This document shows positions 8,706 to 49,940 of a stretch of 64,000 nucleotides of DNA, one piece after another (positions within the stretch are counted from its first letter, which is position 1; every line of letters starts with the position of its first letter). The DNA is from Limnoperna fortunei (taxonomy: Eukaryota > Mollusca > Bivalvia > Mytilida > Modiolidae), in contig OX104122.1 in the NCBI GenBank assembly GCA_944474755.1, positions 11,914,641-11,978,640 of the forward strand, given 5' to 3'. The notes under the pieces were generated by a model. It saw only the letters and a program-made list of their open reading frames with translations, did not search any database and was not told the DNA's origin. The position numbers were made by a program, and so were the translations under genes.

Positions 8706-11700
8706 GTGAATTCATAAGTTATTTATAGAACTGTCAAAATTTGTAATCCTTCATAATACAAAAACTGATTTTAGAAATCTGTTGATATTAATGCAATTAG
8801 CTGCTACTCTCCCAAAAAAGATAGGTTAGCTGAATATGATTAAAGAAATGAACAATTTATTAATTCATTAATTCAAAAAGTTGTGTTCACTGCTAAAATA
8901 AACATATTCAAATCTAACATCAATTATTATTTTATACTGACATTTTATTTCAATCTATTATCTACGATATTCCCTTATTTACTTCTTAAAGTATTTATGA
9001 TCATCTTTTGGATATTGTTACATATCAGGTGGGTAAATAGCATATTGATTCTGGTGCAATTCTCTAAAAGGTCAAGGTCATAGTCGACAAAAAAACACTA
9101 GAAATTTTTACAAAAAAAAAATGTTTCCAGATAATAACTAAAAAAATTTGTATTTGATGTCAGTGAGACTTTTGGGATATTATCTTAGATCTTAGATATA
9201 CATAAAATGTTCCAGATAGAACTAGCAGATAAGGTCAAAAATTGCGACAAGGAAGAGAAAATTGGAGATATTTTTGTTGCATATTAGGTGGGTCAGAAGC
9301 CTATTGGTTTTTGGGGAAATCCATCAATTTTCAAGGTCACTGTTGCCAAAATATGTTAGAAATTTTTACAAAAAAGATGTTTCCAGACATTAACTCATAA
9401 TGTTTACATTTAATTTTAGTGAACCTTTGGGATATAGTTTTATATTAGATGGATCAAAAGGCTATCAATGTTTTGGGAAATTCATGAAACAAAAACTCTA
9501 GAAGTGTCCATTTTTCCAGGAGTACAAAGGTCCCTGCTGACTGTACATGGACTTCTTTTTATTGTGTAACAGGAGGCCTATCTGCATTCGATCAGGTAGT
9601 AGGTATATAGCCAGTTAAAATCGACTGAGCTAACGGAGTACTTCTTTAGCTCACTTGGTTAGAGGGCTGGCTGGCAATACTGAGATCCCGGGTTCAATCC
9701 CCGATGGTGACATCTCGTTATTTCATGCTCTACCGTTACAATTGTATTTTTTCAGGAGTACCAAGGTCCCTGCTGGCTGTACATGGACTTCTTTTAATTG
9801 TATTATTTCAGGAGTACAAAGGTCCCATGCTGACTGTACATGGACTTCTTTTTATTGTATTTTTTCAGGAGTACAAAGGTCCCTGCCAACTGTACATAGA
9901 CTACTTTTTATTGTATTTTTTCAGGAGTACAAAGTCCCCTGCTGATTGTACATGGACTTCTTTTTATTGTATTTTTCCAGGAGTACAAAGGTCCATGCTG
10001 ACTGTACATGGACTTCTTTTTATTGTATTTTTCAAGGAGTACAAAGGTCCCTGCCAACTGTACATGGACTACTTTTTATTGTATTTTTCCAGGAGTACAA
10101 AGGTCCCCAGCTGACTGTACATGGACTACTTTTTATTGTATTTTTCCAGGAGTACAAAGGTCCCCAGCTGACTGTACATGGACTTCTTTTTATTGTATTT
10201 TTTCAGGAGTACAAAGGTCCCTGCCAACTGTACATAGACTACTTTTTATTGTATTTTTTCAGGAGTACAAAGTCCCCTGCTGATTGTACATGGACTTCTT
10301 TTTATTGTATTTTTCAAGGAGTACAAAGGTCCCTGCCACCTGTACATGGACTTCTTTTTATTGTATTTTCCAGGAGTACAAAGGTCCCATGCTGACTGTA
10401 CACTGACTTCTTTTTATTGTATTTTTCCAGGAGTACAAAGGTCCCTGCTGACTGTACATGGACTTCTTTTTATTGTATTTTTCAAGGAGTACAAAGGTCC
10501 CTGCCACCTGTACATGGACTTCTTTTTATTGTATTTTTCCAGGAGTACAAAGGTCCCTGCCAACTGTACATGGACTTCTTTTTATTGTATTTTCCAGGAG
10601 TACAAAGGTCCCCTGCCATCTGTACATGGACTTTTTTTTATTGTATTTTTCAAGGAGTACAAAGGTCCCTGCCAACTGTACATGGACTTCTTTTTATTGT
10701 ATTTTTCCAGGAGTACAAAGGTCCCTGCCAACTGTACATGAACTACTTTTTATTGTATTTTTCCAGAGTACAAAGGTCCCTGCCAACTGTTCATGAACTT
10801 CTTTTTATCGTATTTTTCCAGGAGTACAAAGGTCCCCTGCTTACTGTACAGACTACTTTTTTTGTATTTTCCAGGAGTACAAAGGTCCCCTGTTGACTGT
10901 ACATGGACTACTTGATACTCCAGTAGATGTTATACTTAACAAAGCTGAACAGATCTTAGATATACATAAAATGTTCCAGATAGAACTAGCAGATAAGGTC
11001 AAAAATTGGGACAAGGAAGAGAAAATTGGAGATATTTTTACAGGATTTGTATGTGTTGTTATTTGTTCAAATTCTGAAATATTTTTTTATAATTTAATCT
11101 CCCTTGGCCCAGATTAGAAGTGCAAACCCGGGTTATAGTACGGTGAAGTCGGGCGGACGGATGGGCGGGGAAAATGGGTACCTATTTTGTATAATCAACT
11201 CCTCCTACAGTTTTCAACCCAGATCTCTGAAACTTCAGAGAAAGATTGCACATGTATTGAAGTTGTGCACCTGTTATTATGGAATTGTTCCAGGATATTT
11301 TCCCAATTTTCCAGACATGCCATTTTTCAGACATTTGCAAAAGATGGTACCTATTTTGTGTTATCAACTCCGCCTACATTTTTTTATACAGACCTAAAAC
11401 TTTCTTCCAACAAATTGTAAACAATTCCCTATTTATTAAGGCACTTGGTTTTGCACAACCCGGCCATTTCAGACTTTTGCGATTTTTATTTCCAAGATTG
11501 AAAATATCAATACGGCAGCTTGCATTGAGATTTATAATGAGATCTGGGAAGTAAATAATAACCTGTTTATTGCTGTTTTATTGTCTCGCCTGCGACGAAA
11601 GTCGCTGGAGGCGAGACATATGTATGGGAATCCGGCGGCGGCAGCGGCGGCGCGACGTCGTCGTAAACACTTGACATCTTGCTTCATATCTTTGTAAGCC

Positions 11701-20700: not shown

Positions 20701-23700
20701 CGTCATGTGTGTGAAGAGTGCCAAATCCAGGGGGTGGACAGGGAGACCATCTCAATATAGAAACGGCCTGACTTAGGATCATAGTAATGTGTGTGAAGAG
20801 TGCCAAACCCAGGGGGTGGATAGGAGGCCATCTCAGTGTAGGAAAGGCCTGACTTAGGACCATAGTCATGTGTGTGAAGAGTGCCAAGCCCAGGGGGTGG
20901 ATAGGGAGGCCATCTCAGTGTAGGAAAGGCCTGACTTAGGATCATAGTCATGTGTGTGAAGAGTGCCAAACCCAGGGGGTGGATAGGGAGGCCATCTCAG
21001 TGTAGGAAAGGCCTGACTTAGGACCATAGTCATGTGTGTGAAGAGTGGCAAACCCAGGGGGTGGATAGGGAGGCCATCTCAGTGTAGGAAAGGCCTGACT
21101 TAGGATCATAGTCATGTGTGTGAAGAGTGCCAAACCCAGGGGGTGGATAGGGAGGCCATCTCAGTGTAGGAAAGGCCTGACTTAGGACCATAGTCATGTG
21201 TGTGAAGAGTGCCAAGCCCAGGGGGTGGATAGGGAGGCCATCTCAGTGTAGGAATGGCCTGACTTAGGACCATAGTCATGTGTGTGAAAAGTGCCAAACC
21301 CAGGGGGTGGGTAGGAGGCCATCTCAATGTAGGAAATGCCTGACTTAGGACCATAGTCATGTGTGTGAAGAGTGCCAAGCCCAGGGGGTGGATAGGGAGG
21401 CCATCTCAACGGCCATTACTCCATATTAGTCAGATGTTCTCCAGCCTCTATGACTTGCAACATTATGTTTTATTGAGCTTTTAAATGCCTCTATTGCGGA
21501 CATTTTATGGTATACAAAAGTCCATCTGTCCGTTGTCCGTCCTCGTGTTACACTGTAATTTGAGAATACCTGTAGGCCAACCTTAAAAATATGTTTGTTT
21601 GCTGTTTTCCTACTGTACCTGTAGAGCTATAGGTCAGTAGGTATAACAAATATTTTATTTTATCAACTCTGAACAAACAAACAGAAAGTTTATGTCATCA
21701 AAATAAAGAAAAATTTAATGCAATAAACAGACACTAAGAAAGTCTGATAAGAATAAAAAAACCGAAATATTTGATTCAGACCTGGTCAAGTTAGTACGAC
21801 ATTGCCGTCTGCAGTTCTCTGCAATGAAGGGTATGAGGGAGGATATGGGAGGGGGCCTGCCTCACTATTCAAATGTCCTGAAGACCTACACATAAGGATT
21901 TCATACAAACAACCTCCAATATAGGGTAAAAAAACAGCAAACATACAATATCAGGGCTCGACAGTAACGTTTGTCCGATTGCCCGGTACAAGTGGAAATA
22001 TCCGTCGGACAAGTAAATTCAGTAGTCACTTGTCCGTCAGGATAACTAAAAAAAATAAGCCTATAATGAAGCATCATAAAGAATTGAAGTATCTTTTCTC
22101 GAAAATGCGAGTTTGGTCAATAATTTTTCTGAATTTATTATCCATTACATTTTTTTCATTGCTGATAACATGTCAACAAATTTATGCAAATTACTTAGCA
22201 CTGGTTTGAAACTATGTATGCATAGCCCTAACTACAAGTTGCGATGGGACCAGTATACAACTTATTCGCGATCAAGAAAACGCTTGAAGGAACTGAGCTT
22301 GCCGATAATAGTTGCAAAACTAATTTGACATCGAAACATCAACACACACATGGATCTGACGAAATTCGATTTCAATCTATCGTAACGTTGGCTAAACATA
22401 ATATGTATTGTTTTTAACCAAATCATTGAAACATACAAATTTTGGATGTTCTGGGTCAAAATTTTCGGACAAGTGATGTTTTTATTCGGACAAGTGAATT
22501 TTGAAAGTTGCTTGTTCGAAGGGACAAGTTTAAAAAAAAAGTTATTGTAGAGGCCTGAATATTTTTAATACATGTGTTTACTTCAAACTGCACCTGTCCT
22601 TGTATTTTTAGATGGGTATACCATGGGCTCATCATACCGATGTTTATTTCTCCTTCCATTTACAATATAAGCAGTAATGGATATTCACGACTGAAACTTC
22701 TTTATTATTAGATGTCATGATTTTCATCCATCATCTCCCAGATACAAAAACATAAGAAATTACAACATTAGCCTGGTTTAAATTAAAAATTGGAATCAAT
22801 ATTTAAAAAGAGTATAAATTGGAAGTAAATTTCTGTTGATCAAAAATATTTTTCATGAATGTAAAACTAATATTCAACACGGTATCAATAATTAAATAGC
22901 CCTGGTTGTTCAATTATGGGTTTCCAATGTTTTGATATTTGTTTTTCAGAATCTGTTTACCAAGAGACGGATCCACTCAACCTTCAAAATGACCTTGAAG
23001 ATATGGTCCATGATTACACAATATTAGGGCAGATCTCATCGCTAGTAGCAACCTTAAAATGTTCATATGAGAATTTAAAGGAGGAAGCAGTACTTGAAAT
23101 CACAAGTGACCTGCAGCGGAAAATACAAGTAAAAAACCAACAACTACAGATACTGAACAGCTGTATGGTTGTTGTGGAACACACAAATAATACTAACAAC
23201 AGGTATTACATATCAATATATTAAATTTGATTGGTTAAAAGATGGTCACATGACCTTTGTCATGATGTGATGTCAGATGAACAGCTGTATGGTTGTTGTG
23301 GAACACACAAATAATACTAACAACAGGTATTACATATCAATAAATTAAATTTGATTGGTTAAAAGATGGTCACATGACCTTTGTCATGATGTGATGTCAG
23401 ATGAACAGCTGTATGGTTGTTGTGGAACACACAAATAATACTAACAACAGGTATTACATATCAATATTTTAAATTTGATTGGTTAAAAGATGGTCACATG
23501 ACCTTTGTCATGATGTGATGTCAGATGAACAGCTGTATGATTGTTGCCAAACACACAAATAATACTAACAATTGGTATTACATATCAATATATTAAATTT
23601 GATTGGTTAAAAGATGATCACATGACCTTTGTCAGGATGTGATGTCTAATATTTATAAACTGGTTTTGCATGACCTTGAAGTTGTTACATCTTTAAACTG

Positions 23701-29700: not shown

Positions 29701-32700
29701 GGGGTCCACAGGAGTCCTGTTACCTAGTATGTTCTAATGTCTCTGGGTGGGGCCCACAGGAGTCCTGTTACCTGGTATGTTCTAATGTCTCTGGATGGGG
29801 TCCACAGGAGTCCTGTTACCTGGTATGTTCTAATGTCTCTGGATGGGGCCCACAGGAGTCCTGTTACCTGGTATGTTCTAATGTCCCTGGGTGGGGCCCA
29901 CAGGAGTCCTGTTACCTGGTATGTTCTAATGTCTCTGCGTGGGGCCCACAGGAGTTCTGTTACCTGGTATGTTCTGATGTCTCTGGGTGGGGCCCACAGG
30001 AGTCCTGTTACCTGGTATGTTCTAATGTCTCTGCGTGGGGCCCACATGGTGTCCTGTTACCTGGTATGTTCTGATGTCTCTGGGTGGGGCCCACAGGAGT
30101 ACTGTTACCTGGTATGTTCTAATGTCTCTGGATGGGGCCCACAGGAGTTCTGTTATCTGGTATGTTCTAATGTCTCTGTTAGGGCCCACAGAAGTCCTGT
30201 TATCTGTTATGTTCTAATGTCTCTGGGTGGGGCCCACAGGAGTCCTGTTATCTGGTATGTTCTAATGTCTCTGGATGGGGCCCACAGGAGTACTGTTACC
30301 TGGTATGTTCTAATGTCTCTGGGTGGGGCCCACAGGAGTACTGTTATCTGGTATGTTCTAATGTCTCTGGGTGGGGCCCACAGGAGTCCTGTTACCTGGT
30401 ATGTTCTAATGTCTCTGGATGGGCCCACAGGAGTCCTGTTATCTGGTATGTTCTAATGTCTCTGCGTGGGGCCCACAGGAGTTCTGTTACCTGGTATGTT
30501 CTAATGTCTCTGGGTGGGGCGCAATGGAGTCCTGTTATCTGGTATGTTCTAATGTCTCTGGATGGGGCCCACAGGAGTCCTGTTATCTGGTATGTTCTAA
30601 TGTCTCTGGATGGGGCCCACAGGAGTTCTGTTATCTGGTATGTTCTAATGTCTCTGTTAGGGCCCACAGAAGTCCTGTTATCTGTTATGTTCTAATTTCT
30701 CTGGATGGAGCCCACAGGAGTACTGTTATGTGGTATGTTCTAATTTCTCTGGATGGGACCCACAGGAGTTCTGTTACCTGGTATGTTCTAATGTCTCTGG
30801 ATGGGGCCCACAGGAGTCCTGTTACCTGGTATGTTCTAATTTCCCTGGATGGGGCCCACAGGAGTCCTGTTATCTGGTATGTTCTAATGTCTCTGGATGG
30901 GACCCACAGGAGTCCTGTTATCTGGTATGTTCTAATGTCTCTGGATGGGACCCACAGGAGTCCTGTTACCTGGTATGTTCTAATGTCTCTGGATGGGGCC
31001 CACAGGAGTACTGTTACCTGGTATGTTCTAATGTCTCTGGATGGGGTCCACTGGAGTCCTGTTATCTGGTATGTTCTAATGTCTCTGCGTGGGGCCCACA
31101 GGAGTTCTGTTACCTGGTATGTTCTAATGTCTCTGGGTGGGGCGCAATGGAGTCCTGTTATCTGGTATGTTCTAATGTCTCTGGATGGGGCCCTTAGGAG
31201 TCCTGTTATCTGGTTTGTTCTAATGTCTCTGGATGGGGCCCACAGGAGTTCTGTTATCTGGTATGTTCTAATGTCTCTGTTAGGGCCCACAGAAGTCCTG
31301 TTATCTGTTATGTTCTAATTTCTCTGGATGGAGCCCACAGGAGTTCTGTTACCTGGTATGTTCTAATGTCTCTGGGTGGGGCCCACAGGAGTCCTGTTAT
31401 CTGGTATGTTCTAATGTCTCTGGATGGGCCCACAGGAGTCCTGTTACCTGGTATGTTCTAATGTCTCTGGATGGGGCCCACAGGAGTCCTGTTACCTGGT
31501 ATGTTCTAATTTCTCTGGATGGGGCCCACAGGAGTCCTGTTATCTGGTATGTTCTAATGTCTCTGGATGGGACCCACAGGAGTCCTGTTATCTGGTATGT
31601 TCTAATGTCTCTGGATGGGACCCACAGGAGTCCTGTTACCTGGTATGTTCTAATGTCTCTGGATGGGGCCCACAGGAGTACTGTTACCTGGTATGTTCTA
31701 ATGTCTCTGGATGGGGTCCACTGGAGTCCTGTTACCTGGTATGTTCTATTGTCTCTGGGTGGGGCCCACAGGAGTCCTGTTACCTAGTATGTTCTAATGT
31801 CTCTGGATGGGGCCCACAGGAGTACTGTTATCTGGTATGTTCTAATGTCTCTGTATGGGGCCCACAGGAGTCCTGTTATCTGGTATGTTCTAATGTCTCT
31901 GGATGGGGCCCACAGGAGTCCTGTTACCTAGTATGTTCTAATGTCTCTGGATGGGGCCCACAGGAGTACTGTTACCTGGTATGTTCTAATGTCTCTGGAT
32001 GGGGTCCACAGGAGTCCTGTTACCTGGTATGTTCTATTGTCTCTGGGTGTGGCCCACAGGAGTCCTGTTACCTGGTATGTTCTAATGTCTCTGGGTGGGA
32101 CCCACAGGAGTCCTGTTACCTGGTATGTTCTATTGTCTCTGGGTGGGGCCCACAGGAGTCCTGTTACCTGGTATGTTCTAATGTCTCTGGGTGGGGCCCA
32201 CAGGAGTCCTGTTACCTGGTATGTTCTATTGTCTCTGGGTGGGGCCCACAGGAGTCCTGTTACCTGGTATGTTCTAATGTCTCTGGATGGGGCCCACACG
32301 AGTCCTGTTACCTAGTATGTTCTAATGTCTCTGGGTGGGGCCCACAGGAGTCCTGTTACCTGGTATGTTCTAATGTCTCTGGATGGGACCCACAGGAGTC
32401 CTGTTATCTGGTATGTTCTAATGTCTCTGGATGGGACCCACAGGAGTCCTGTTACCTGTTATGTTCTAATGTCTCTGGATGGGACCCACAGGAGTCCTGT
32501 TACCTGGTATGTTCTAATGTCTCTGGATGGGACCCACAGGAGTCCTGTTACCTGGTATGTTCTAATGTCTCTGGGTGGGGCCCACAGGAGTCCTGTTACC
32601 TGGTATGTTCTAATGTCTCTGGGTGGGGCCCACAGGAGTCCTGTTACCTGGTATGTTCTAATGTCTCTGGGTGGGGCCCACAGGAGTCCTGTTACCTGGT

Positions 32701-35700
32701 ATGTTCTAATGTCTCTGGGTGGGGCCCACAGGAGTCCTGTTACCTGGTATGTTCTAATGTCTCTAGGTTGGGCTCACTTATTTGGGGGTTGTCAGGTTAT
32801 AATAAAGAAAACCTGGCCAGGAACCTTAGTTATCAACATGGACCCTCCTTGGTCCACCCCAGCCACTAATTTATTGTTTGTTTACTTGTTCTGTCCTGAA
32901 ATACCACTCTCAGGACATGAAGCAACCATTCAATGAGTAATGTTGGATGAACAATTCAACATCTGTATGTATCCTTGTGTATGACTTCTAATTTTATCAA
33001 ATTAAAAAGGTGTCAAAGTGTATCTTGCTACATGTATTGTCAACCCTTTTTAAAACAAACATGTTTGTTTCCTGCCAGCAGTGACGTTAAACTGAATTTG
33101 CTGTTATAATATATTTGTATTTTTGTACATTGATTATCTCCCTTTTTTATTTGCATCTATTGAAAATCGTTCATGTCTGCTCAATACCCACGCTTATAAA
33201 AAAAACCAAAAAATTATAAAATGTGTGTTTTCTTGCAGATATTTAATTAAAAACCTGTAAATTATGTTCATTTACATTAGACCAATTTTTGGTAATTATC
33301 CTTTTTCTGAAGTGCCGCTTCAATCTTAACACACTTAAGCCAATAATTTTATAAGATATTTGAAGATTTAAATATTAAATAGCCTTTGACACCTTTTTAA
33401 TTAAGCCACATCCCTGTCAGCAATTAGTTTTGAAACGTAAATGTCAAGCACGGTTAATTACGCAATAGCAACAGGTGTTCACCTGTGCAATCAATCATTA
33501 AAAAAATCAATTCTCTGGACAAAGATCATTTTTCACAGGTAAATCTTTATAATTTGTCATTTTAACAAATTATTTATGCTTGCTTTGGTATATTTGTTAA
33601 TGACATACACAGTCGGAGTTGGAAACCGAATATGTCGTTGTATTGAGCATAAACAACACGTGGACACATTTGTTACCACTGAAATCCTGTCGGTTGTCGA
33701 ATATTCTGTTAACTGAATGTCATTGTAACAAGGGTTCACTGTATATCATTTAAATGTTTGGCTACATGATTTAAAGAAGTGTTATAATTATGGACAGAAT
33801 TTTTTAGGATACAGGGGTGGGGGGGGGGGGGGGGCAGAGGAGTAGGATGACACAGATGTTGGGTATGAGGAGACAAAGGTGGGGTAAGAGGACACAGAAG
33901 TAGTAAAAGGACATTTCTTGTTAGCACCCACTACCCAATACAAATAAGAATAAAATTTCATATGAATCCTAAACAATTTTTTCCAGAACTCTCCCTTCAT
34001 TTGTTCCAAGATTACCCTGAGTGTAAGTTGTTTGACAGTTATGCTCTTTGATGTTAATTAACTGTTTTGTTACTAACATGTCATTTGAGTTAGTGTAGTG
34101 GATTACAAGTTACACTACAGTACAGATTGGGTGGATGTTAAGATTTTCAATTTATCCACAGTGGGCACTTCATCATCCACTTATCCACATTGGACATTTC
34201 ACCATCGTTCACTAATCCAGAGTGGGCACTTCATTATTGTCTATTTATCCACATTGGCAGAAGTTTACAAACTACAAGTTTAGCCCACCATGTACCAATA
34301 ATTGGGCAGGGTATACAAGCTACAAGTTTTGTCCACCATGTACCAAGGAGTGGGCAGGGTTTACAGGCTACAAGTTTAGCCCACCATGTACCAATGATTG
34401 GGCAGAGTATACAAGCTACAAGTTTAGCCCACTATGTACCAATGATTGGGCAGGGTTTACAGGCTACAAGTTTAGCTCACCATGTACCAGTGAGTGGGCA
34501 GAGTATACAAGCTACAAGTTTAGCCCACCATGTACCAATGAGTGGGCAGAATATACAAGCTACAAGTTTAGCCCACCATGTACCAATGATTGGGCAGGGT
34601 TTACAGGCTACAAGTTTAGCCCACCATGTACCAATGATTGGGCAGGGTTTACAGGCTACAAGTTTAGCCCACCATGTACCCCAATGAGTGGGCAGGGTAT
34701 ACAAGCTACAAGTTTTGCCCACCATGTACCAATGAATGGGCAGAGTATACAAGCTACAAGTTTTGCCCACCATGTACTGATGAGTGGGCAGGGTATACAA
34801 ACTACAAGTTTTGTCCACCATGTACCAATAATTGGGCAAGGTATACAAGCTTCAAGTTTTGCCCACCATGTACCAATGAGTGGACAGAGTATACAAGCTA
34901 CAAGTTTAGCCCACTATGTACCAATGATTTGGCATGGTTTACAGGCTACAAGTTTAGCCCACCATGTACCAATGAGTGGGCAGAGTATACAAGCTACAAG
35001 TTTGCCCACCATGTACCAATGAGTGGGCAAAGTATACAAGCTTCAAGTTTCGCCAACCATGTATCAATGAGTGGGCAGAGTATACAAGTTACAAGTTTTG
35101 CCCACCATGTACGGATGAGTGGGCAGAGTATACAAGCTAGAAGTGTTGCCCACCATGTTCCAATGAGTGGGCAGAGTATACAAGCTACAAGTTTTGCCCA
35201 TCATGTACAAATGAGTTGGCAGAATATACAAGCTACAAGTTTTGCCCACCATGCACCAATGAGTGGGCAGAGTATACAAGCTACAAGTTTTGCCCACCAT
35301 GTACCACTGAGTGGGCAGAGTATACAAGCTACAAGTTTAGCCCATCATGTACCACTGAGTGGGCAGAGTATACAAGCTACAAGTTTGCCCACCATGTACC
35401 AATGAGTGGGCAGAGTATACAAGCTACAAGTTTGCCCACCATGTACCAATGAGTGGGCAGAGTATACAAGCTTCAAGTTTCGCCAACCATGTACCAATGA
35501 GTGGGCAGAGTATACAAGTTACAAGTTTTGCCCACCATGTACGGATGAGTGGGCAGAGTATACAAGCTTCAAGTTTCGCCAACCATGTACCAATGAGTGG
35601 GCAGAGTATACAAGTTACAAGTTTTGCCCACCATGTACGGATGAGTGGGCAGTGTATACAAGCTAGAAGTGTTGCCCACCATGTACCAATGAGTGGGCAG

Positions 35701-44700: not shown

Positions 44701-47700
44701 ACAGGAGAACATTAGGATTGGGTGGGTACTATACATTAATGTATATTATAGACAGAAGAACATTAGGATTGGGTGGGTACTATACATTAATGCATATTAT
44801 AGACAGAAGAACATTTAGGATTGGGTGGTACTATACATTAATGCATATTATAGTCAGAAGAACATTTAGGATTGGGTTGGTACTATACATTAATGTATAT
44901 TATAGTCAGAAGAACATTTAGGATTGGGTGGGTACTATACATTAATGCATATTATAGACGGAAGAACATTAGGATTGGGTGGGTACTGTACATTAATGCA
45001 TATTATAGACAGAAGAACATTAGGATTGGGTGGGTACTATACATTAATGCATATTATAGACAGAAGAACATTTAGGATTGGGTGGGTACTATACATTAAT
45101 GCATATTATAGACAATTATAGACAGAAGAACATTAGGATTGGGTGGGTACTATACATTAATGAATATTATAGACAGAAGAACATTAGGATTGGGTGGGTA
45201 CTATACATTAATGCATATTATAGACAGAAGAACATTTAGGATTGGGTGGGTACTATACATTAATGCATATTATAGACAGAAGAACATTTAGGATTGGGTG
45301 GGTACTATACATTAATGCCTATTATAGACAGAAGAACATTTAGGATTGGGTGGTACTATACATTAATGCATATTATAGACAGAAGAACATTTAGGATTGG
45401 GTGGGTACTATACATTAATGCATATTATAGACAGAAAAACATTTAGGATTGGGTGGGTACTATACATTAATGCATATTATAGACAATTATAGACAGAAGA
45501 ACATTAGGATTGGGTGGTTACTATACATGAATGCATATTATAGACAATTATAGACAGAAGAACATTAGGATTGGGTGGGTACTATACATTAATGTATATT
45601 ATAGACAGAAGAACATTAGGATTGGGTGGGTACTATACATTAATGCATATTATAGACAGAAGAACATTTAGGATTGGGTGGGTACTATACATTAATGCCT
45701 ATTATAGACAGAAGAACATTTAGGATTGGGTGGTACTATACATTAATGCATATTATAGACAGAAGAACATTTAGGATTGGGTGGGTACTATACATTAATG
45801 CATATTATAGACAGAAGAACATTTAGGATTGGGTGGGTACTATACATTAATGCATATTATAGACAATTATAGACAGAAGAACATTAGGATTGGGTGGGTA
45901 CTATACATGAATGCATATTATAGACAATTATAGACAGAAGAACATTAGGATTGGGTGGGTACTATACATTAATGTATATTATAGACAGAAGAACATTAGG
46001 ATTGGGTGGGTACTATACATTAATGCATATTATAGACAGAAGAACATTTAGGATTGGGTGGTACTATACATTAATGCATATTATAGTCAGAAGAACATTT
46101 AGGATTGGGTTGGTACTATACATTAATGTATATTATAGTCAGAAGAACATTTAGGATTGGGTGGGTACTATACATTAATGCATATTATAGACAGAAGAAC
46201 ATTAGGATTGGGTGGGTACTGTACATTAATGCATATTATAGACAGAAGAACATTAGGATTAGGTGGGTACTATACATTAATACATATTATAGACAGAAGA
46301 ACATTAGGATTGGGTGGGTACTATACATTAATGCATATTATAGACAGAAGAACATTAGGATGGGGTGGGTACTATACATTAATGCATATTATAGACAGAA
46401 GAACATTTAGGATTGGGTGGGTACTATATATTAATGCATATTATAGACAGCTAATTATGGTTATGCTTACAAAGTTTTATTGGGAATCAACTAATATAAG
46501 TAATTTGATTTATTTTTTTTTTAGTTAAATTTTGAACTTAACATTTTAATTTTGACGTGATTAATTTTGCTTTCATTAGGAACAAATTGAAATGACGTGT
46601 AAAGAAGGCGGAGATATAAGTCACATGGTGAGGTCAGGAGTGGGTTTGTGGGTAGCTCATCATAGTAGCTCATCTATACATCTGTACCACATAGAAACTA
46701 AAAAGCATCTACAGGAAATAAATGTGGCTTCTTCTGTTAATAATCTGGTCCATGGTAAGTTTGTACTCTGTTAATAATCTGGTCGATTGTAAGTTTGTAC
46801 TCAGTTAATAATCTAGCCATGGTAAGTTTGTACTCTGTTAATAATCTGGTCGATGGTAAGTTTGTACTCTGTTAATAATCTGGTCGATGGTAAGTTGTAC
46901 TCTGTTAATAATCTGGTCGATGGTAAGTTGTACTCTGTTAATAATCTGGTCGATGTTTATAATCTGTTACTAGTCTAGTCCATGTTAAGTTTGACCTCTG
47001 TTACTAGCCTAGTCCATGGTAAGTTTGTAATTTGATAATTTAGTCTATGATAAGTTTTTAATCTGTTAACAATTTAGTCCATGGTAAGTTTGTATTCTTT
47101 AACAATCTAGTCCATGGTAAGTTTGAAATCTGTTAACAATCTAGTCCATGGTAAGTTTGTATTCTTTAACAATCTAGTCCATGGTAAGTTTGAAATCTGT
47201 TAACAATCTAGTCCATGGTAAGTTTGTATTCTTTAACAATCTAGTCCATGGTAAGTTTGAAATCTGTTAACAATCTAGTCCATGGTAAGTTTGTATTCTT
47301 TAACAATCTAGTCCATTGTAAGTTTGAAATCTAGTCCATGGTAAGTTTGAAATCTGTTAACAATCTAATCCATGGTAAGTTTGAAATCTGTTAACAATCT
47401 ACTCTATGGTAAGTTTGATATCTGTTAATAATGTAGTCCATGGTAAGCTTATACTAGGTTATTTAAAGAGTGTTACACAGTTAGCATTATTAACTAATCT
47501 TCCCTGAGGCCTTCATGCATAAAACAAATACAAAACAATCTTATTAAAAGTTTACAATTCAGAGTGAAAAATACAGTATAAAAAAGTATGTATACAGTAC
47601 ATTTTAAATCATATAAATCACACATCACTACTAATTCTGCTTTGAATCAGATATGTTTTGACACCATACTTAAAAAGTTGTGTATTTACAGGACTTTTTA

Positions 47701-49940
47701 AATCATGCGGCAATTCGTTCCATAATGTTGATCCTAAAAACACAAATGACTGTTTGTAAAATTCAGCTTTAGCCATTGGAATAAAAAGATTGCCAGCTAA
47801 AATGTTTTTCAATGCATATGGGTTATTTTTAGAGAGGTAGCTATTTTGTCCATGGCAAGTTTGTAATTTAGTCCTGAAGAGCTAATAAAATTTTACTATC
47901 ACCAATGGTAAGTGGAATTTCCTATGTTGGGTCAAGATATGCCAGTTTTTGTGCTTAAGGTTGAGGTTGGGTCAAGGTTTACCAGTTCTCCTGCTGAAGG
48001 TCAAGGTTTACTAGTTCTCCTGCTGAAGGTCAAGGTTTACTAGTTCTCCTGCTGAAGGTCAAGGTTTACTAGTTCTCCTGCTGAAGGTCAAGGTTTACCA
48101 GTTCTCCTGCTGAAGGTCAAGGTTTACTAGTTCTCCTGCTGAAGGTCAAGGTTTACTAGTTCTCCTGCTGAAAGTCAAGGTTTACTAGTTCTCCTGCTGA
48201 AGGTCAAGGTTTACTAGTTCTCTTGCTGAAGGTCAAGGTTTACTAGTTCTCCTGCAGAAGGTCAAGGTTTACTAGTTCTCCTGCTGAAGGTCAAGGTTTA
48301 CCAGTTCTCCTGCTGAAGGTACTAGTTCTCCTGCTGAAGGTCAAGGTTTACTAGTTCTCCTGCTGAAGGTCAAGGTTTACTAGTTCTCTTGCTGAAGGTC
48401 AAGGTTTACTAGTTCTCCTGCAGAAGGTCAAGGTTTACTAGTTCTCCTGCTGAAGGTCAAGGTTTACCAGTTCTCCTGCTGAAGGTACTAGTTCTCCTGC
48501 TGAAGGTCCATGTTTACCAGTTCTCCTGCTGAAGGTCAAGGTTTACTAGTTCTCCTGCTGAAGGCCAAGGTTTACTAGTTCTACTGCTGAAGGTCAAGGT
48601 TTACTAGTTCTGCTGAAGGTCAAGGTTTACCAGTTCTCCTGCTGAAGGTCAAGGTTTACTAGTTCTCCTGCTGAAGGTCAAGGTTTACCAGTTCTCCTGA
48701 TGAAGGTCAAGGTTTACCAGTTCTCCTGCTGAAGGTCAAGGTTTACCAGTTCTCCTGCTGAAGGTCAATGGTTTTCACCAGTGTCTTTCAACTCCAATTT
48801 GGAAACTGAATGGCCTGATACAGCTGACAAATTTCTAAAGTAAAGCATCAAACATATAAACTCCTGACATTAAGGAATCAATCAATCAATTAGACAAGCA
48901 AACAAGCATATACACAGATACTATATATATGTAGCTGATTGACTGATGGTGAACATTTTATTTCAGGTAATTCAGATGGGTCTTTTGGACTGGAAACTTC
49001 TTGTGTTATATCAAGTTTGATGGTCAGCAAAGGATTTTTGTGGGTGGGAACCAGTTCAGGTGTATTACTTGCATTCCCTCTGCCTCGTCTAAAAGATGGT
49101 GTCCCTATTATTAGTGGAAGACCATTTGTTTCATATCATGGTCACAATGGACCAATACAATTTCTTATACCCATTTACTGCGGGACAGTGAACTTGTGGC
49201 ATAAAGCAAGAGGATTGGATTATAGTATTAGTGATTTAAGACAGCAGCAAAGTATTAAGGAATCCAAAGCTGGAAAATTGCAGAGGCAAGATCCTAAACG
49301 TCACTCCGGTTCGGAAATTGATAAAGCTGTATCACAAATTTCTTTAGAAGGAGACTATGTAAAAATGACACAAAAACCTACACCACCAGAAACAAACATG
49401 AGATTAAAAGCTCCGGAAAATAGTTCAAGTGAACTCAAAACGGAAAACCGCTTATCTAGATCTGCTGATGATATAACAAAACTGGTGCCATCAAAATTTC
49501 CAGAAAGAAATGAACAGAGAGGAAAAACATTGAAATTTCCAACAAAATTAGCATCTCGTCCGAATGTAACAAAAACACTAAATCGCATGATGGGTGCAGG
49601 TGATGATGACGTTAATGAAGTATACAGTGACTTGATGAGGAACGAGTCATTGACGTCGCCAGTAAGACCTAACGTTGAAAAACAGACAAAATCATCATTT
49701 AGGAAGCCTTCGTTTGTTGGATTAATGCGAGGATCAAAGCTCCGTGATACAAAGCAAGCTTCGGTCAGAGTGTCTTCAGATGAACCCAGGTTACGTGCTC
49801 TTGATACATTATCCAAACGAGGCTGTAATTCTGTAATGATTGTGATGGGTGGAGATGGCTACATTGATTGGAGAAAGAAGTCGTCTGCTGGTTTGAAGAA
49901 TTTGGAAGCTGCATTAATTATTTGGCTTTATAAATTTTAA
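8628..49940 (+). CDS. ARHGEF10: ARHGEF10-family Rho guanine-nucleotide exchange factor, 5'-partial, 15 exons in window
   Basis: Joined exons: 8628-8705, 10875-11048, 13177-13293, 14436-14528, 17835-18044, 18928-19007, 20261-20409, 22950-23202, 24666-24751, 25962-26074, 27196-27458, 28288-28463, 29488-29630, 46580-46754, 48967-49940. All junctions are GT-AG and phases match throughout, giving 1027 residues and a stop. From memory, the order of blocks matches vertebrate ARHGEF10/ARHGEF10L almost without gaps: DH helix 1, the [10 protein letters not shown] signature, a PH-like stretch, then a propeller containing [16 protein letters not shown] and [11 protein letters not shown]. The family catalyses GDP-GTP exchange on RhoA-type GTPases at membranes and cytoskeleton. 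Invertebrates usually keep a single member, so 10 versus 10L cannot be separated here. The N-terminal region, start codon and promoter lie outside the window. Introns are swollen by minisatellites; intron 13 alone is about 17 kb. No transcript evidence is available to me. Confidence 0.93.
9010..9504 (+). repeat. Diverged duplicated intron segments
   Basis: Segments around 9015-9180, 9275-9440 and 9441-9500 share blocks such as CATATTAGGTGGGTCA, CTAGAAATTTTTACAAAAAA and GATGTTTCCAGA, as a degenerate tandem duplication. The exon 2 fragment copy at 9187-9275 lies between two of these blocks. Confidence 0.55.
9187..9275 (+). pseudogene. Partial copy of ARHGEF10 exon 2 in intron 1
   Basis: These 89 bases match the exon 2 segment from AGATCTTAGATATACATAAA to GGAGATATTTTT with one visible difference (C at 9245 where exon 2 has G, turning Trp to Cys). 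It has no acceptor at its left edge, and the reading frame runs into TAG about 10 bases beyond the copy. It is therefore a non-functional exon fragment. The near identity implies recent duplication or gene conversion. Confidence 0.85.
9505..10900 (+). repeat. 56-bp minisatellite made of the exon 2 acceptor (array C)
   Basis: About 21 units of 56 bp each consist of TTCTTTTTATTGTATTTTTCCAG followed by GAGTACAAAGGTCCCTGCCA and the rest of 33 exon-like bases. The last unit is the genuine 3' splice site and first codons of exon 2 (EYKGP). Units begin near 9520, 9756, 9812 and so on. The first and second are separated by a 176-bp insertion. Open reading frames here are repeat by-products: 56 is not a multiple of three, so each frame cycles through all three. 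Confidence 0.95.
9565..9740 (+). mobile_element. 176-bp tRNA-like mobile insertion in array C
   Basis: The insert has short inverted ends (TGTAAC / GTTACA) and a 4-bp flanking duplication ATTG (9561-9564, 9741-9744). Removing insert plus one ATTG restores the 56-bp spacing exactly. The interior contains TAGCTCACTTGGTTAGAG (box A-like, tRNA D-arm form) and GGGTTCAATCCCC (box B-like). It is a different tRNA-derived family from the main SINE here. I could not fold a complete tRNA, so it is not called as a tRNA gene. Confidence 0.75.
10875..11048 (+). CDS. ARHGEF10: ARHGEF10 exon 2: DH domain helices
   Basis: This 174-nt, phase 0-0 exon encodes 58 residues from [11 protein letters not shown] to [10 protein letters not shown]. 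The block [17 protein letters not shown] aligns with the ILHCHSMFQIAL block of vertebrate ARHGEF10L, and EKIGDIF is also conserved. The donor is GTATGT at 11049. The acceptor TATTTTCCAG ends at 10874 and is the last of about 21 near-identical copies of this splice site, because the adjoining intron carries a 56-bp array built from the acceptor plus the first 33 exon bases. An upstream acceptor cannot give an in-frame product: copies in the exon frame meet a TGA at 10794, and the nearest one (exon-like start 10822) is out of frame. Confidence 0.92.
11049..11582. repeat. Intron 2 start with an unclassified interspersed repeat
   Basis: From about 11104, the blocks ATCAACTCCTCCTACAG, CCCAGATCTCTGAAACTTCA and CATTTCAGACTTT recur in the same order at 58390-58770. 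They therefore belong to a dispersed repeat family whose class I cannot name. The ORFs on either strand are not convincing genes. Confidence 0.6.
11583..12981. mobile_element. Dispersed element with GTCTCGCCTGC inverted ends and an internal 146-bp array
   Basis: The ends are GTCTCGCCTGC (11583-11593) and GCAGGCGAGAC (12971-12981), an 11-bp perfect inverted repeat. The interior carries eight 146-bp tandem units from 11775 to about 12930, each with CACCTGACCTTGACCTCAAT and GTTTTTGGGTTACGACAGTT. A diverged relative lies at 19064-20103. No transposase ORF is seen. Element class is unknown. Confidence 0.75.
11775..12930. repeat. 146-bp tandem repeat inside the dispersed element
   Basis: The unit GACCTTGACC... 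starts at 11775, 11921, 12067 and so on every 146 bases. Copies 1-6 are almost identical. The last two diverge, suggesting growth from the left or centre. The relative at 19064 has the same unit in only about two to three diverged copies, so the expansion is specific to this copy. Confidence 0.9.
13177..13293 (+). CDS. ARHGEF10: ARHGEF10 exon 3: DH domain, middle helices
   Basis: The 117-nt, phase 0-0 exon encodes 39 residues beginning [21 protein letters not shown], matching the SFSKSMVLDVYSDYVNNF segment of vertebrate family members. The acceptor is TTTTTTTGTTGTAG and the donor is GTAAGG. Joining exon 2 (DIFTGF) to FSREMV reproduces the vertebrate spacing without a gap, which supports both boundaries. 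Confidence 0.92.
13446..13702 (+). mobile_element. tRNA-derived SINE with 5' leader
   Basis: The body shows GGCTCGGTGGCAGAGTGGTT AAGG (box A-like), GGTTCGAGTCTCA (box B-like), CTCCGGCTTCCTCCCTC and the tail GCTGAAAGTGGTGTTAAACA TCATTCAAACAAA. It is preceded by a roughly 45-bp leader (AATTTTGGGACATATTATAG ...) that also precedes the copy at 25575. Confidence 0.85.
13950..14335 (+). mobile_element. Palindrome-headed MITE-like element, copy 1
   Basis: An inverted repeat of about 65-70 bp per arm spans 13960-14110: AATTGGGCGGAGTGAATATC to CATCTGATTAAAC, mirrored by GTTTAATCTGATG to GCCCAATTGATTATCC. It is followed by a shared body (GATCAAAATTGTTTTCGTAA ... CACTCGGAAAATTCTATATT). The same element occurs in reverse orientation at 27932-28240. 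It is non-coding. Confidence 0.75.
14436..14528 (+). CDS. ARHGEF10: ARHGEF10 exon 4: DH signature helix
   Basis: The 93-nt, phase 0-0 exon carries [17 protein letters not shown], the diagnostic helix (CR3) of ARHGEF10-type DH domains. That helix contacts the switch regions of Rho GTPases in known structures. Acceptor ATTTGTAG, donor GTATGT. A 36-bp minisatellite starts about 40 bp beyond the donor but does not contain the exon edge. Confidence 0.94.
14570..17075. repeat. 36-bp minisatellite in intron 4 (array D)
   Basis: About 69 copies of a unit like GGAGTCTGACTTTGGGCAAG + GTGTGCTCGTCTCCAT. Both strands stay open over long stretches because 36 is a multiple of three and the unit lacks stops, giving spurious ORFs of up to 349 codons. 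A roughly 359-bp higher-order duplication is visible (the variant block with TTGGTGCGCAGTGTGCTCG at about 15191 and 15550). Confidence 0.95.
17076..17834. other. Rest of intron 4
   Basis: AT-rich unique sequence with a G-run of about 16 bases near 17694-17708. It ends in the exon 5 acceptor. I see no conserved coding or RNA feature. Confidence 0.55.
17835..18044 (+). CDS. ARHGEF10: ARHGEF10 exon 5: end of DH domain
   Basis: The 210-nt, phase 0-0 exon encodes 70 residues starting [20 protein letters not shown] and continuing [19 protein letters not shown]. This is nearly collinear with the DMLKNTPRGHPDR ... [21 protein letters not shown] stretch of ARHGEF10L. It is the last long DH helix leading to the PH-like region. 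Acceptor GTGTTTTCAG, donor GTAAGT. Confidence 0.94.
18409..18748 (+). mobile_element. Two adjacent SINE 3' portions
   Basis: Two head-to-tail SINE 3' parts (about 18422-18562 and 18580-18740) each run from CTCAACTCCAATCTTAA to a CATT(C/A)AAACAAA-type tail. TCTTCTTTGTGTA flanks them three times (about 18409, 18566 and 18741), consistent with target duplications from two successive insertions or a duplication of one. Neither keeps a full tRNA-like head. Confidence 0.75.
18928..19007 (+). CDS. ARHGEF10: ARHGEF10 exon 6: PH-like region
   Basis: The 80-nt exon starts in phase 0 and leaves two bases (AG) that join the G of exon 7 as an Arg codon. It encodes [20 protein letters not shown] and a short remainder, matching the strand pair SKERRVFLLNDMLVC of the family. 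Acceptor TTTTTTACAG, donor GTCAGT, a weaker match than its neighbours. It could be missed by automated gene finders because it is short and gives no long ORF. Confidence 0.88.
19064..20103. mobile_element. Diverged relative of the GTCTCGCCTGC element, with an inverted-repeat insert
   Basis: Left end GTCTCACCTGCGATGA, right end GAAGCAAGACATTTTTCTGTGT. The interior has CACCTGACCTTGACC and GTTTTTGGGTTACGACAGTT as in 11583-12981, but only two to three diverged units. A separate segment (19133-19390) has two direct copies and one inverted copy of a block containing TGTATTGTATTTGAAGATTT and GCTGGCAT. Confidence 0.65.
19133..19390. repeat. Direct plus inverted repeat, hairpin-forming
   Basis: GGAGATAACTGTATTGTATT ... 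GATTTGATGGTCGGAAA appears near 19135 and 19217 in direct orientation. It appears as the reverse complement at 19327-19390 (TTTCCGACAATCAAATCA ... ACAGTTATCTCC). Arms are about 62 bp. It probably derives from another MITE. Confidence 0.7.
20261..20409 (+). CDS. ARHGEF10: ARHGEF10 exon 7: PH-like region, continued
   Basis: This 149-nt exon (1 + 49 codons + 1) encodes [20 protein letters not shown] and onward to [19 protein letters not shown] fits the family's YVVKWNTALPQVQVV strand. The acceptor is ATGTTTCCAG. The donor GTTGAC at 20410 is non-canonical after GT, but it is the only one that leaves the single G needed to form GAA with exon 8 before the in-frame TGA at 20412. Confidence 0.85.
20460..21415. 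repeat. 82-bp minisatellite in intron 7 (array E)
   Basis: About 11-12 copies of a unit containing CCCAGGGGGTGGATAGGGAG and GCCTGACTTAGGACCATAGT, with starts every 82 bases (for example 20866, 20948, 21030, 21112). It begins about 50 bp beyond the exon 7 donor and does not include exon bases. Minus-strand ORFs (GWPP- and SLSTPWA-type repeats) are by-products. Confidence 0.93.
21416..22949. other. Rest of intron 7: one MITE, otherwise unique
   Basis: The stretch contains the hAT-like MITE at 21952-22557. The remainder is AT-rich unique DNA with no recognisable gene, ending in the exon 8 acceptor (TTTGTTTTTCAG). Confidence 0.6.
21952..22557. mobile_element. hAT-like MITE with 5-bp target duplication
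   Basis: Ends CAGGGCTCGACAGTAAC and GTTATTGTAGAGGCCTG form an imperfect 17-bp inverted repeat. They are flanked by AATAT on both sides (21947-21951, 22558-22562). Subterminal regions repeat a CGGACAAGTG-type motif in both orientations. No transposase is encoded in the 606 bp. CAGG-type ends with a short duplication are typical of hAT relatives. Confidence 0.8.
22950..23202 (+). CDS. ARHGEF10: ARHGEF10 exon 8: helical segment after PH-like region
   Basis: The 253-nt exon begins with AA completing a Glu codon and ends with AG of an Arg codon. It encodes [20 protein letters not shown] and [20 protein letters not shown], which match [28 protein letters not shown] of ARHGEF10L. It then runs to a variable HTNNTNNR tail. 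The donor is GTATTA. The last 48 exon bases plus 76 intron bases are repeated about four times downstream (23155-23645), so the donor is also repeated. Confidence 0.92.
23155..23645 (+). repeat. 124-bp repeat containing the exon 8 end and donor (array F)
   Basis: Four copies start with GAACAGCTGTATGGTTGTTG at 23155, 23279, 23403 and 23527. The first is the genuine end of exon 8 with its donor; the others lie in the intron. Each has 48 exon-derived bases, the donor CAACAG|GTATTAC (lost in copy 4, which reads CAATTGGTATTAC) and 76 intron bases. Copies 2-3 are almost identical to copy 1; copy 4 has diverged. Confidence 0.93.
23646..24665. other. Rest of intron 8
   Basis: AT-rich unique sequence with one SINE (24119-24374). 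Nothing else is recognised before the exon 9 acceptor. Confidence 0.55.
24119..24374 (+). mobile_element. tRNA-derived SINE
   Basis: It has head GGTCCTCAGTGGCTGAGTAG TTAGG, central GATTGACAAGGATTGCC, CTCCGGCTTCCTTCCCC, and tail GCTGAAAGTGGCATTAAACC CCATTCAAACAAAC. The box B region (GATGTTCGAGCCTAA) is shortened relative to other copies. Confidence 0.8.
24666..24751 (+). CDS. ARHGEF10: ARHGEF10 exon 9: linker before the propeller
   Basis: The 86-nt exon (1 + 28 codons + 1) encodes [20 protein letters not shown] and DFLLAKLAL. This fits the family stretch ending KISWVNRLHLAKIGL, a tryptophan-containing helix leading out of the PH-like region. Acceptor TTATTTCAG, donor GTAATA. Confidence 0.88.
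24752..25961. other. Intron 9
   Basis: It holds a short SINE fragment (about 24864-24913, TTCCCCAATAAAAACTGGAT), unique AT-rich DNA with chance ORFs at 25061-25312, and a full SINE (25575-25892). No other feature is seen. Confidence 0.55.
25575..25892 (+). mobile_element. tRNA-derived SINE with 5' leader, second copy
   Basis: Leader AATTTTGGGACATATTATAG CATAACTTTCAAAAGATAAT TTGGG is the same as in front of the 13446 copy. Then GGACTCGATTGCTGAGTGGT TAAGG, GCGGGTTAGAGCCTCA, and a tail ending CATTCAGACAAAAAATAAAA. It lies just upstream of exon 10. Confidence 0.82.
25962..26074 (+). CDS. ARHGEF10: ARHGEF10 exon 10: linker region
   Basis: The 113-nt exon (2 + 37 codons) encodes [20 protein letters not shown] and then [18 protein letters not shown]. 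It is poorly conserved apart from its position, which corresponds to the acidic linker before the propeller in vertebrate proteins. It is supported by a strong acceptor (TTTTGTTTTTCAG), a good donor (GTAAAG) and phase agreement on both sides. The exact extent is less certain than for the DH exons. Confidence 0.8.
26650..27070 (+). mobile_element. SINE interrupted by another SINE
   Basis: The outer plus-strand copy has its head at about 26650 (GGGCCTCGATGGCCCGTATG ATTAAGGTTG). It resumes at 26896 and continues through CTACTATTGATCATGTGGTC to a CATTCAAACAAACAAACA-like tail. The break is occupied by a minus-strand copy flanked by the 12-bp duplication AAGGTTGTTTGT (26674-26685, 26896-26907). Confidence 0.88.
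26686..26895 (-). mobile_element. Nested SINE
   Basis: The minus-strand copy (GGCCTTGGTGGCCGAGTGGT TAAGG head when reverse-complemented) lies inside the SINE above, between two copies of AAGGTTGTTTGT. Its 3' part is shortened (the GCTGAAAGTGG motif is absent). Confidence 0.85.
27196..27458 (+). CDS. ARHGEF10: ARHGEF10 exon 11: first propeller blades
   Basis: The 263-nt exon starts in phase 0 and ends with two bases (GA). It encodes [13 protein letters not shown], then [26 protein letters not shown] and VIAVEIVPG, the repeated strand pattern of the family's WD40-like propeller. It ends at [11 protein letters not shown]. The initial ATG is codon 1 of the exon, not a start site. Acceptor TTTCAATTTAG, donor GTAAGG. 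Confidence 0.88.
27504..27730 (+). mobile_element. Degenerate SINE
   Basis: GGGCCTCTGTGGCCAACCAT, CTCAACTCCAACTTTAATGG and the tail GCTGAAGAATTGCTGAAAGT GGCTTAAAACAAACAAACAA fit the family, with more substitutions and a damaged head. Confidence 0.75.
27932..28240 (-). mobile_element. Palindrome-type MITE-like element, copy 2 (opposite orientation)
   Basis: The reverse complement matches 13950-14335: AATTTTCCGAGTGACAGAAA, AAATTTTACGAAAACAATTT, TGATCATATTTTGGATATTC and CCGCCCAATTAATTATCCTA are shared. One palindrome arm is mostly lost, leaving about 309 bp. Confidence 0.75.
28288..28463 (+). CDS. ARHGEF10: ARHGEF10 exon 12: propeller blades
   Basis: The 176-nt exon (1 + 58 codons + 1) encodes [12 protein letters not shown], then [20 protein letters not shown] and [16 protein letters not shown]. 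The [12 protein letters not shown] strand pair is typical of propeller blades and parallels LLAGLQDGTLAAY in ARHGEF10L. Acceptor ATTTCAG at 28281-28287, donor GTATGG. Confidence 0.88.
28464..29487. other. Intron 12
   Basis: A pure T-run near 28744-28758, a truncated minus-strand SINE (28809-28938), then unique sequence to the exon 13 acceptor. ORFs across 28265-28799 combine exon 12 with intron read-through. Confidence 0.55.
28809..28938 (-). mobile_element. Truncated SINE
   Basis: GTTTGTTTGTTTGAACGCCA CTTTCAGCAATATTTCAGCT and GGAGGAAGCCGGAGTACC mark the 3' half of the family on the minus strand. The tRNA-like head is absent. Confidence 0.78.
29488..29630 (+). CDS. ARHGEF10: ARHGEF10 exon 13: propeller blade; donor lies at the head of a 48-bp array
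   Basis: The 143-nt exon (2 + 47 codons) encodes [20 protein letters not shown] and [20 protein letters not shown], ending PVEESCYL. It matches the WDLESP ... LLSLEDAVWASCG segment of ARHGEF10L. Joined to exon 14 ([17 protein letters not shown]), the spacing to SHMV equals that in the human protein. That supports the first GTATGT (29631) as the ancestral donor. The last 15 exon bases (ESCYL) and this donor are repeated about 65 times downstream. The 48-bp period keeps frame, so use of any of roughly the first nine donors would add 16-residue repeats without a stop. Confidence 0.9.
29616..32765 (+). repeat. 48-bp minisatellite containing the exon 13 end and donor (array G)
   Basis: About 65 copies of GAGTCCTGTTACCTG followed by GTATGTTCTAATGTCTCTGG GTGGGGCCCACAG. 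The first 15 bases are the last five codons of exon 13 (ESCYL). GTATGT is its donor. CTAAT resembles a branch point, and CCCACAG is acceptor-like. Thus each unit forms a potential 15-nt, phase 0-0 microexon with its own signals. The period preserves frame, giving an open [16 protein letters not shown] repeat of up to 481 codons (31424-32869). Frame-shifting variants near 30047, 30180, 30424 and elsewhere break it into blocks. Confidence 0.96.
32766..34262. other. Intron 13, unique part
   Basis: The array ends and unique AT-rich DNA follows, with a G-run (about 33818-33834) and a degenerate start of the next array (GTGGGCACTTCAT and TTATCCACATTGG occurring twice to three times, 34150-34260). 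No gene is seen. Confidence 0.55.
34263..37220. repeat. 48-bp minisatellite, second type (array H)
   Basis: About 62 copies of a unit like GTATACAAGCTACAAGTTTT + GCCCACCATGTACCAATGAGTGGGCAGA. It shows no similarity to any exon of the gene. Variants (AAGTTTAGC, AAGTGTTGC, GGATGAGTGG) recur in blocks, for example a block of ten units repeated at about 36231 and 36711. Single-base indels cycle the reading frame, so ORFs on both strands are artefacts. Confidence 0.95.
37221..38137. other. Intron 13, unique AT-rich part
   Basis: I see no repeats, coding similarity or RNA features in this stretch between two arrays. Confidence 0.5.
40120..42807. mobile_element. 2.7-kb non-autonomous transposon with 28-bp terminal inverted repeats
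   Basis: Ends are TACACCCCCTGAAACGTAAA + ACGTTCCC and its perfect reverse complement. Subterminal zones on both sides are rich in CGTTCG/TTCGTCCG motifs. The interior is AT-rich and holds an internal 53-bp tandem array. No transposase frame is visible. The outer TA at each end suggests a TA target, as in Tc1/mariner-type elements, with terminal bases CACCCC. The element sits inside array I, so it inserted after the array formed. Confidence 0.85.
40830..42060. repeat. 53-bp tandem repeat inside the TIR element
   Basis: About 22 diverged units of GGTCTCAGGAGTGATTTTAT + ATGTGTAATATGGTTTTTAATTGTATCGCAAA. Divergence is greater than in the flanking array, implying an older, internally expanded element. 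Confidence 0.88.
46580..46754 (+). CDS. ARHGEF10: ARHGEF10 exon 14: propeller blade
   Basis: The 175-nt exon (58 codons + 1) encodes [40 protein letters not shown] and [18 protein letters not shown]. This is nearly collinear with [36 protein letters not shown] of ARHGEF10L. Acceptor GCTTTCATTAG, donor GTAAGT. The exon's 3' end and donor are the template of the 34-bp array that follows. Confidence 0.94.
46731..47455 (+). repeat. 34-bp minisatellite containing the exon 14 end and donor (array J)
   Basis: About 20 units of CTCTGTTAATAATCTGGTCC ATG|GTAAGTTTGTA. The first copy is the real end of exon 14 (codons for SVNNLVH plus one base) and its GTAAGT donor. Later copies keep CCATGGTAAGTTTG while the upstream half drifts to TTAACAATCTAGTCC and units vary from about 28 to 34 bases. 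An in-frame stop at 46772-46774 follows the real donor, so use of later donors would truncate the protein. Confidence 0.94.
47500..47830 (-). mobile_element. LINE 3'-end fragment
   Basis: The minus strand (47812-47618) encodes 64 residues including [20 protein letters not shown] and [10 protein letters not shown]. The SFxxxGxxLWNxLPxxL...FKxxxKxYL pattern is the usual C-terminus of non-LTR retrotransposon reverse-transcriptase proteins (CR1/RTE-like). Only this tail is present, so it is a 5'-truncated copy. The family cannot be assigned from so little. Confidence 0.7.
47965..48770 (+). repeat. 29-bp minisatellite derived from a SINE segment (array K)
   Basis: About 28 units of GGTCAAGGTTTACTAGTTCT CCTGCTGAA. 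The unit resembles the SINE's central part (GCCAGTTTTCCTACCGAAGG TC...). The array is followed directly by a SINE tail at 48770-48862 (ACTCCAATTTGGAAACTGAA, CAGCTGACAAATTTCTAAAG). It seems to have grown inside an inserted SINE. Confidence 0.85.
48770..48862 (+). mobile_element. SINE tail remnant after array K
   Basis: TTTTCACCAGTGTCTTTCAA, GAAACTGAATGGCCTGATAC AGCTGACAAATT and AAGCATCAAACATATAAAC parallel TTTTCTC...GAAACTGGATGCCATGATAT AGCTGAAAAATT and TTAAACATCATTCAAAC of full copies, with many changes. Confidence 0.6.
48967..49940 (+). CDS. ARHGEF10: ARHGEF10 exon 15: last propeller blade, variable insert, C-terminus and stop
   Basis: This 974-nt terminal coding exon ends in TAA. It opens with [20 protein letters not shown] and [20 protein letters not shown], then [12 protein letters not shown]. 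That matches [20 protein letters not shown] and GHCGPVAFLA of ARHGEF10L. A polar, Ser/Lys-rich insert of about 200 residues follows, containing RLSRSADDI and [12 protein letters not shown]; the vertebrate proteins also have a variable insert here containing a YEM-type motif. The end, [13 protein letters not shown] ... IIWLYKF, matches the closing IISGGQGYRNF ... LLIWQV strand that seals the propeller. Acceptor ATTTTATTTCAG; preceding phase is one base (G). Confidence 0.93.

Follow-up and report, generated by a model that had tools for sequence, protein, structure and literature searches.

Candidate mirage-type minisatellites at the splice junctions of an ARHGEF10-like gene in the bivalve Limnoperna fortunei

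The ARHGEF10-like gene and its junction arrays

The window analysed here, 64,000 nucleotides of contig OX104122.1 (positions 11,914,641 to 11,978,640 of the forward strand, assembly GCA_944474755.1), carries an ARHGEF10-like gene, for which we built by hand a model of 15 exons with GT-AG introns and a single frame of 1027 amino acids. The model protein contains the Pfam domains RhoGEF, PH_19 and WD40_2, and its closest homologues are the ARHGEF10-like proteins of three Mytilus species, with 78% identity over the full length, followed by oyster homologues with 43-45% identity. The exons of the gene model that concern us are E1 (8628..8705), E2 (10875..11048), E8 (22950..23202), E13 (29488..29630), E14 (46580..46754) and E15 (48967..49940), the last, which runs to the stop codon, all on the + strand. 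The exon that precedes E1, referred to as E0 (+ strand), ends at position -31603, left of the window, in 40 kb of upstream DNA. Beyond 50 kb the window was covered by a listing of reading frames.

Four tandem arrays, all on the + strand and delimited by TRF, run across the ends of exons of this gene. Array C, with a 56-bp unit (9741..10913), crosses the E2 acceptor at 10874/10875 and includes 39 exon bases, its last unit being the genuine junction. In array F, four units of 124 bp (23154..23646), it is the first unit that is genuine, with 49 exon bases up to the E8 donor at 23202/23203. Array G, 66 units of 48 bp (29614..32772), takes in 17 exon bases at the E13 donor (29630/29631), and array J, 22 units of 34 bp (46733..47455), takes in 22 at the E14 donor (46754/46755). 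A preliminary description of this DNA had reported these four arrays, and TRF places them where it had put them; its assignment of one acceptor and three donors, the genuine sites of exons 2, 8, 13 and 14, to the exon-side terminal units agrees with our gene model, and its figure of 15-48 exon bases per unit is revised to 17-49. A BLAST comparison of the 15 exons and their 60-bp flanks with the window found copies of exon sequence in arrays C, F, G and J; a match between the flank of exon 4 and array E was confined to array E's own start. The further statement that the remaining arrays lack matches to exons stands within the range it covered (9505..48966), but it missed a fifth array, A, which lies to the left of that range.

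Array A is the largest of the five. Its 76-bp unit was followed by TRF and in the upstream DNA from 1..4475 of the window leftward to -31675 (+ strand), so that most of its 36 kb, in which 459 units were counted, is outside the window; it lies at the E0 donor, CAG/GTATGT. The Mytilus protein P0001 has VNLEKHPPPCLPPAPEKMENHQ immediately ahead of the E1 residues, and the array A unit codes for VNLEKHPPPCLPPQPEGMENHQ, then continues as gtatgtaaaa. E0 carries TGTAAAAG 73 bases from its end and the donor is GTATGTAAAAG, so that the unit is split into 66-73 exon and 3-10 intron bases. The array stops mid-unit at array B, so that the right edge and the seed assigned to it are approximate. At least 80% identity to the consensus is retained by 440 of the 459 units, among which 122 are distinct, and the 40 kb of upstream DNA that bears the array contains no N. 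Coding constraint on the copies was considered, as third codon positions are about four times more variable than the others, and was rejected: that excess is due to a few common variants, and the distinct variants (16 synonymous, 45 non-synonymous) are at the neutral proportion, 26% against 24% expected. The copies of array A thus vary without coding constraint. Array B, which directly adjoins it (33-bp unit, window 4473-7679), is open for 855 codons on the + strand and 692 on the - strand; such long open frames are expected, since the unit length is divisible by three.

Across A, C, F, G and J the TRF matches are 82-96%, as in homogenised tandem copies, and the copies keep much of the splice signal. 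GGTATG is conserved in 374/440 units of array A (donor position +1 is altered in 50/440), in 56/65 units of array G and in 13 of the 14 array J units that lack large indels. Scored with a matrix from the same gene's other 14 acceptors, 14 decoy acceptors in array C reach at least the score of the true one. Decoy splice sites therefore persist in the arrays beside the true site. Of the five units, only that of G has a length divisible by three, and translation through array G was considered and discarded, as the gene's frame meets a stop at 30072, about nine units in.

Several other features were noted near these arrays. By eye, each unit of array G also has CCCACAG ahead of GAGTCC, a site that resembles an acceptor and lies 15 bases upstream of the unit's donor. 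Exon 2 bases 10951-11039 are copied non-tandemly at 9187..9275 on the + strand (89 bp, 98.9%, BLAST), in intron 1 about 1.8 kb upstream, and a lone array C unit at ~9512-9557 is separated from the array by a sequence resembling a tRNA-derived SINE, also by eye. An element of ~2.7 kb with terminal inverted repeats TACACCCCCTGAAACGTAAAACGTTCC (window 40120-42807) splits array H (51 bp) and bears a 52-bp array of its own, array I. The 146-bp (11767-12890) and 152-bp (19657-19970) repeats form one dispersed family, and the 146-bp unit matches 10 of the other segments compared. Two copies of a 91-bp unit, followed by a partial reverse-complement copy at ~19329-19393 (by eye), lie at 19123-19393.

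Counts against random placement and a survey of myosin and dynein genes

In order to compare these overlaps with chance, each gene was reduced to a single unit for every array, and seeds of matching length were placed at random, with wholly exonic seeds rejected. An array was called private if its unit had no match to another segment among the 39 compared. With any overlap counted, 5 of the 11 private arrays in this gene lie at a junction against 0.96 expected (P 0.0014), and inclusion of the dispersed array D gives 5/12 (P 0.003); both counts omit the element-borne array I and the two-copy arrays at 19123 and 19657. The four arrays of the preliminary description alone amount to 4/9 or 4/10 non-element arrays (P 0.002-0.006), or to 4/12 with D, 19123 and 19657 in and I and A out (P 0.021-0.025). 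Under a strict rule that asks for 5 or more bases on both sides of the junction, 4 or 5 of 11 remain against 0.83 expected (P 0.006 or 0.0008). The suspicion that four such arrays in one gene, five with array A, exceed random placement is thus borne out.

We extended the count to other genes of this genome, with 71 exon hits for myosin and 17 for dynein in a total of 198 kb with 35 arrays. PF00063 gave 89 myosin exon hits, of which 71 were surveyed in 28 segments (174,982 bp, 32 arrays), and PF08393 gave 96 dynein hits, 17 of them surveyed (23.5 kb, 3 arrays); exon ends in the survey are the ends of the homology hits, and two of the arrays share one exon. The five junction arrays of the survey were read in the sequence. 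Two are myosin donor arrays, of 30 bp at C3:88852614 and of 35 bp at C6:84569287. At C11:70476233-70477651 a donor array (57 bp, 15 copies) and an acceptor array (53 bp, 7.5 copies) flank a single myosin exon, at 682-1531 and 1695-2100 of segment L042. The dynein array, 10 copies of 65 bp at C8:8674333 (1834-2487 of segment L054), has a unit made of the exon end KHMATITKVAEVAGKEYSIEQ and 1-4 intron bases. Its first-unit donor, CAG/GTAAGC, is formed at the duplication joint, the donors of the copies come from exon bases, and CAG/GTAACA at the far end is likely the original donor. Left out of the count after viewing were a myosin array at C13:20552023, which begins ~10 bp beyond a donor, and four others at distances of 63-140 bp from myosin exon hits.

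Dispersed units make up 9 of the 35 survey arrays, and all ten junction arrays, five here, four in myosin genes and one in a dynein gene, are private among the 39 segments compared and have units that are part exon, part intron. The preliminary description had left the generality of the pattern to a wider survey. Myosin and dynein genes show it again among private arrays (5/26, 1.29 expected, P 0.008), but with the nine dispersed arrays included the count is 5/35 against 2.77 expected (P 0.13). The strict rule, which takes the dynein array out, gives 4/26 private arrays (1.06 expected, P 0.017) and 4/35 of all arrays (2.46 expected, P 0.22). With both sets combined, 10 of 37 private arrays lie at junctions against 2.04 expected, a count reached in 0/30,000 runs, and 10 of 47 with all arrays (3.73 expected, P 0.0026); the strict counts are 8/37 (P 0.0002) and 8/47 (P 0.013), respectively. 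The excess outside the ARHGEF10-like gene is of modest size in a small sample. Eight of the ten junction arrays are at donors and two at acceptors, so both 5' and 3' boundaries are affected, and the bias towards donors in these ten is not significant (two-sided 0.11).

Origin of the arrays and competing explanations

In an alignment of the gene model with 21 homologues, taken from 120 listed, the residues at the exon ends of all five junctions are present in the three Mytilus proteins, with a few substitutions but without indels; in oysters, scallops and others the exon ends match partly, and indels occur where E8 and E13 end. The exon ends are conserved in Mytilus, so that the exons seeded the arrays and, at the protein level at least, the exon ends predate them. 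In the reverse order, exonisation, the exon ends would have been recruited from arrays that were there before them. PMC3087553 describes the Rogers model of intron gain by tandem duplication, and it is there that the repeats known as mirages in amphioxus are put forward as a possible origin of new introns. The indel-free exon ends of the Mytilus proteins at all five junctions, together with their partial match in other molluscs, make that order highly improbable here.

We favour the interpretation that the junction arrays are mirage-type minisatellites, in which boundary DNA has been tandemly duplicated and has grown into the intron with the exon-side unit still splicing, and we give it a probability of roughly 0.88. 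A short segment spanning an exon-intron boundary that was already present would have been duplicated in tandem, a step perhaps aided in array A and in the dynein array by short matches between the exon and the start of the intron. Ordinary minisatellite turnover, by unequal exchange or slippage, would then have expanded and homogenised the array, with growth proposed to be only into the intron because growth of the exon would break the protein. The unit beside the exon, the first in donor arrays and the last in acceptor arrays, would remain the splice junction of the gene, and splicing past the decoys would be correct, at this unit. From the intact reading frame of 1027 amino acids in the genomic sequence and from homology we infer that the exon-adjacent sites are used.

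The excess of arrays at junctions may reflect either more births there or longer survival of arrays whose end unit is under selection. Before either is considered, the overlaps could be chance alone, since arrays fill 21.2 of the 39.5 kb covered by the preliminary description, a density that forces some crossings of exon ends without junctions being favoured. The ARHGEF10-like gene was chosen for showing the pattern, and in the survey the counts for all arrays (5/35 against 2.77 expected, P 0.13; strict 4/35, P 0.22) agree with such a reading. It is nevertheless unlikely in view of the private arrays, both in this gene (5/11, P 0.0014) and in the independent survey (5/26, P 0.008), and of the combined sets with all arrays counted (10/47 against 3.73, P 0.0026). 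An artefact of assembly is suggested by the amphioxus example, in which a mirage was misassembled in a draft genome (PMC3087553); the 122 distinct units among 440 in array A, the lack of any N in the 40 kb upstream and the recurrence of the pattern at four further loci, with different units, leave it very little room.

Splice-junction DNA may itself be more prone to duplication, for instance by way of short direct repeats close to the boundary or transcription-linked replication trouble. Candidate repeats occur in array A, where the exon has TGTAAAAG and the donor is GTATGTAAAAG, and in the dynein gene, where the exon has TAAGCAC, the donors of the copies are GTAAGCAC and 3-4 bases are shared at the array's right edge; the junction excess among private arrays points the same way. 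Against this, most of the arrays have no clear flanking repeat at their seed edges (nine arrays, edges partly decayed), and more frequent birth is, on balance, a somewhat improbable cause. Survival offers a second cause, which we hold to be no more and no less probable: a selected exon-side unit would let a junction array shrink and regrow and never vanish, whereas deep-intron arrays can be deleted whole. This would fit the excess and the intact unit that is always found at the exon edge, and the ratio of donor to acceptor arrays, 8 to 2 (not significant, 0.11), is as expected if the first-transcribed site wins, but decoys should carry a splicing cost that opposes survival. We would only tentatively go on to a broader reading, in which splice junctions are a favoured home of private minisatellites in this lineage, with an exon-side seed that is under selection, cannot be deleted and lets arrays regrow, an exon-edge splicing rule that ignores hundreds of equal decoys, and donor arrays that persist longer than acceptor arrays, since in them transcription reaches the true site ahead of the decoys.

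Relation to known systems and implications

The primary paper on amphioxus mirages is reportedly that of Canestro et al. 2002. The preliminary description knew of no name for the pattern, a claim that does not survive comparison with the lancelet mirages, which have the same structure (PMC3087553 and PMC3902484). Amphioxus mirages occur in Adh3 and in the globins BflGb6 and BflGb9 (PMC3087553) and share the anatomy of the junction arrays described here (PMC3087553 and PMC3902484). Their units measure 10-72 and 150-160 bp according to PMC3087553, compared with 30-124 bp here, and the BflGb6 haplotypes reported there have 6 and 3 units, compared with up to 459 units and 36 kb here. The amphioxus mirages have had their splicing and length polymorphism tested (PMC3087553), whereas the mussel arrays are known from the sequence of one genome assembly. 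Unlike them, the present arrays are in a bivalve, not a lancelet, five in one gene, and counted against random placement.

Other boundary repeats resemble these in part. The human interferon-induced gene with a minisatellite is said to be 6-16/IFI6. By its title, as cited in PMC2572611, that minisatellite has multiple splice donors, so that its units carry donors as ours do; the same title implies that the donors are used, whereas the inner donors here are known as sequence only. Tandem repeats also lie at splice sites of lancelet PGBD5, as few imperfect copies, with troponin C as a further case (PMC3902484). In human segmental-duplication genes, as in the mussel gene, internal tandem repeats at exon-intron boundaries alter gene structure, but there variable repeats lengthen exons or form new introns (PMC2812944), whereas here the exon ends look conserved and the introns grow. 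Our literature searches, which covered open papers only, found no mollusc case of boundary repeats; within the searchable literature, what is new is the taxon, the count against chance and the scale, with 36 kb in one array and five arrays in a single gene.

Should mirages prove common in bivalves, as in lancelets, they would represent a recurring route of intron growth and a ready-made supply of splice sites for new exons and introns. They are also natural tests of splice-site choice, in which a single true donor has to be told from hundreds of nearly identical, regularly spaced copies, and the two kinds of array, donor arrays with the true site first and acceptor arrays with the true site last, allow a comparison.
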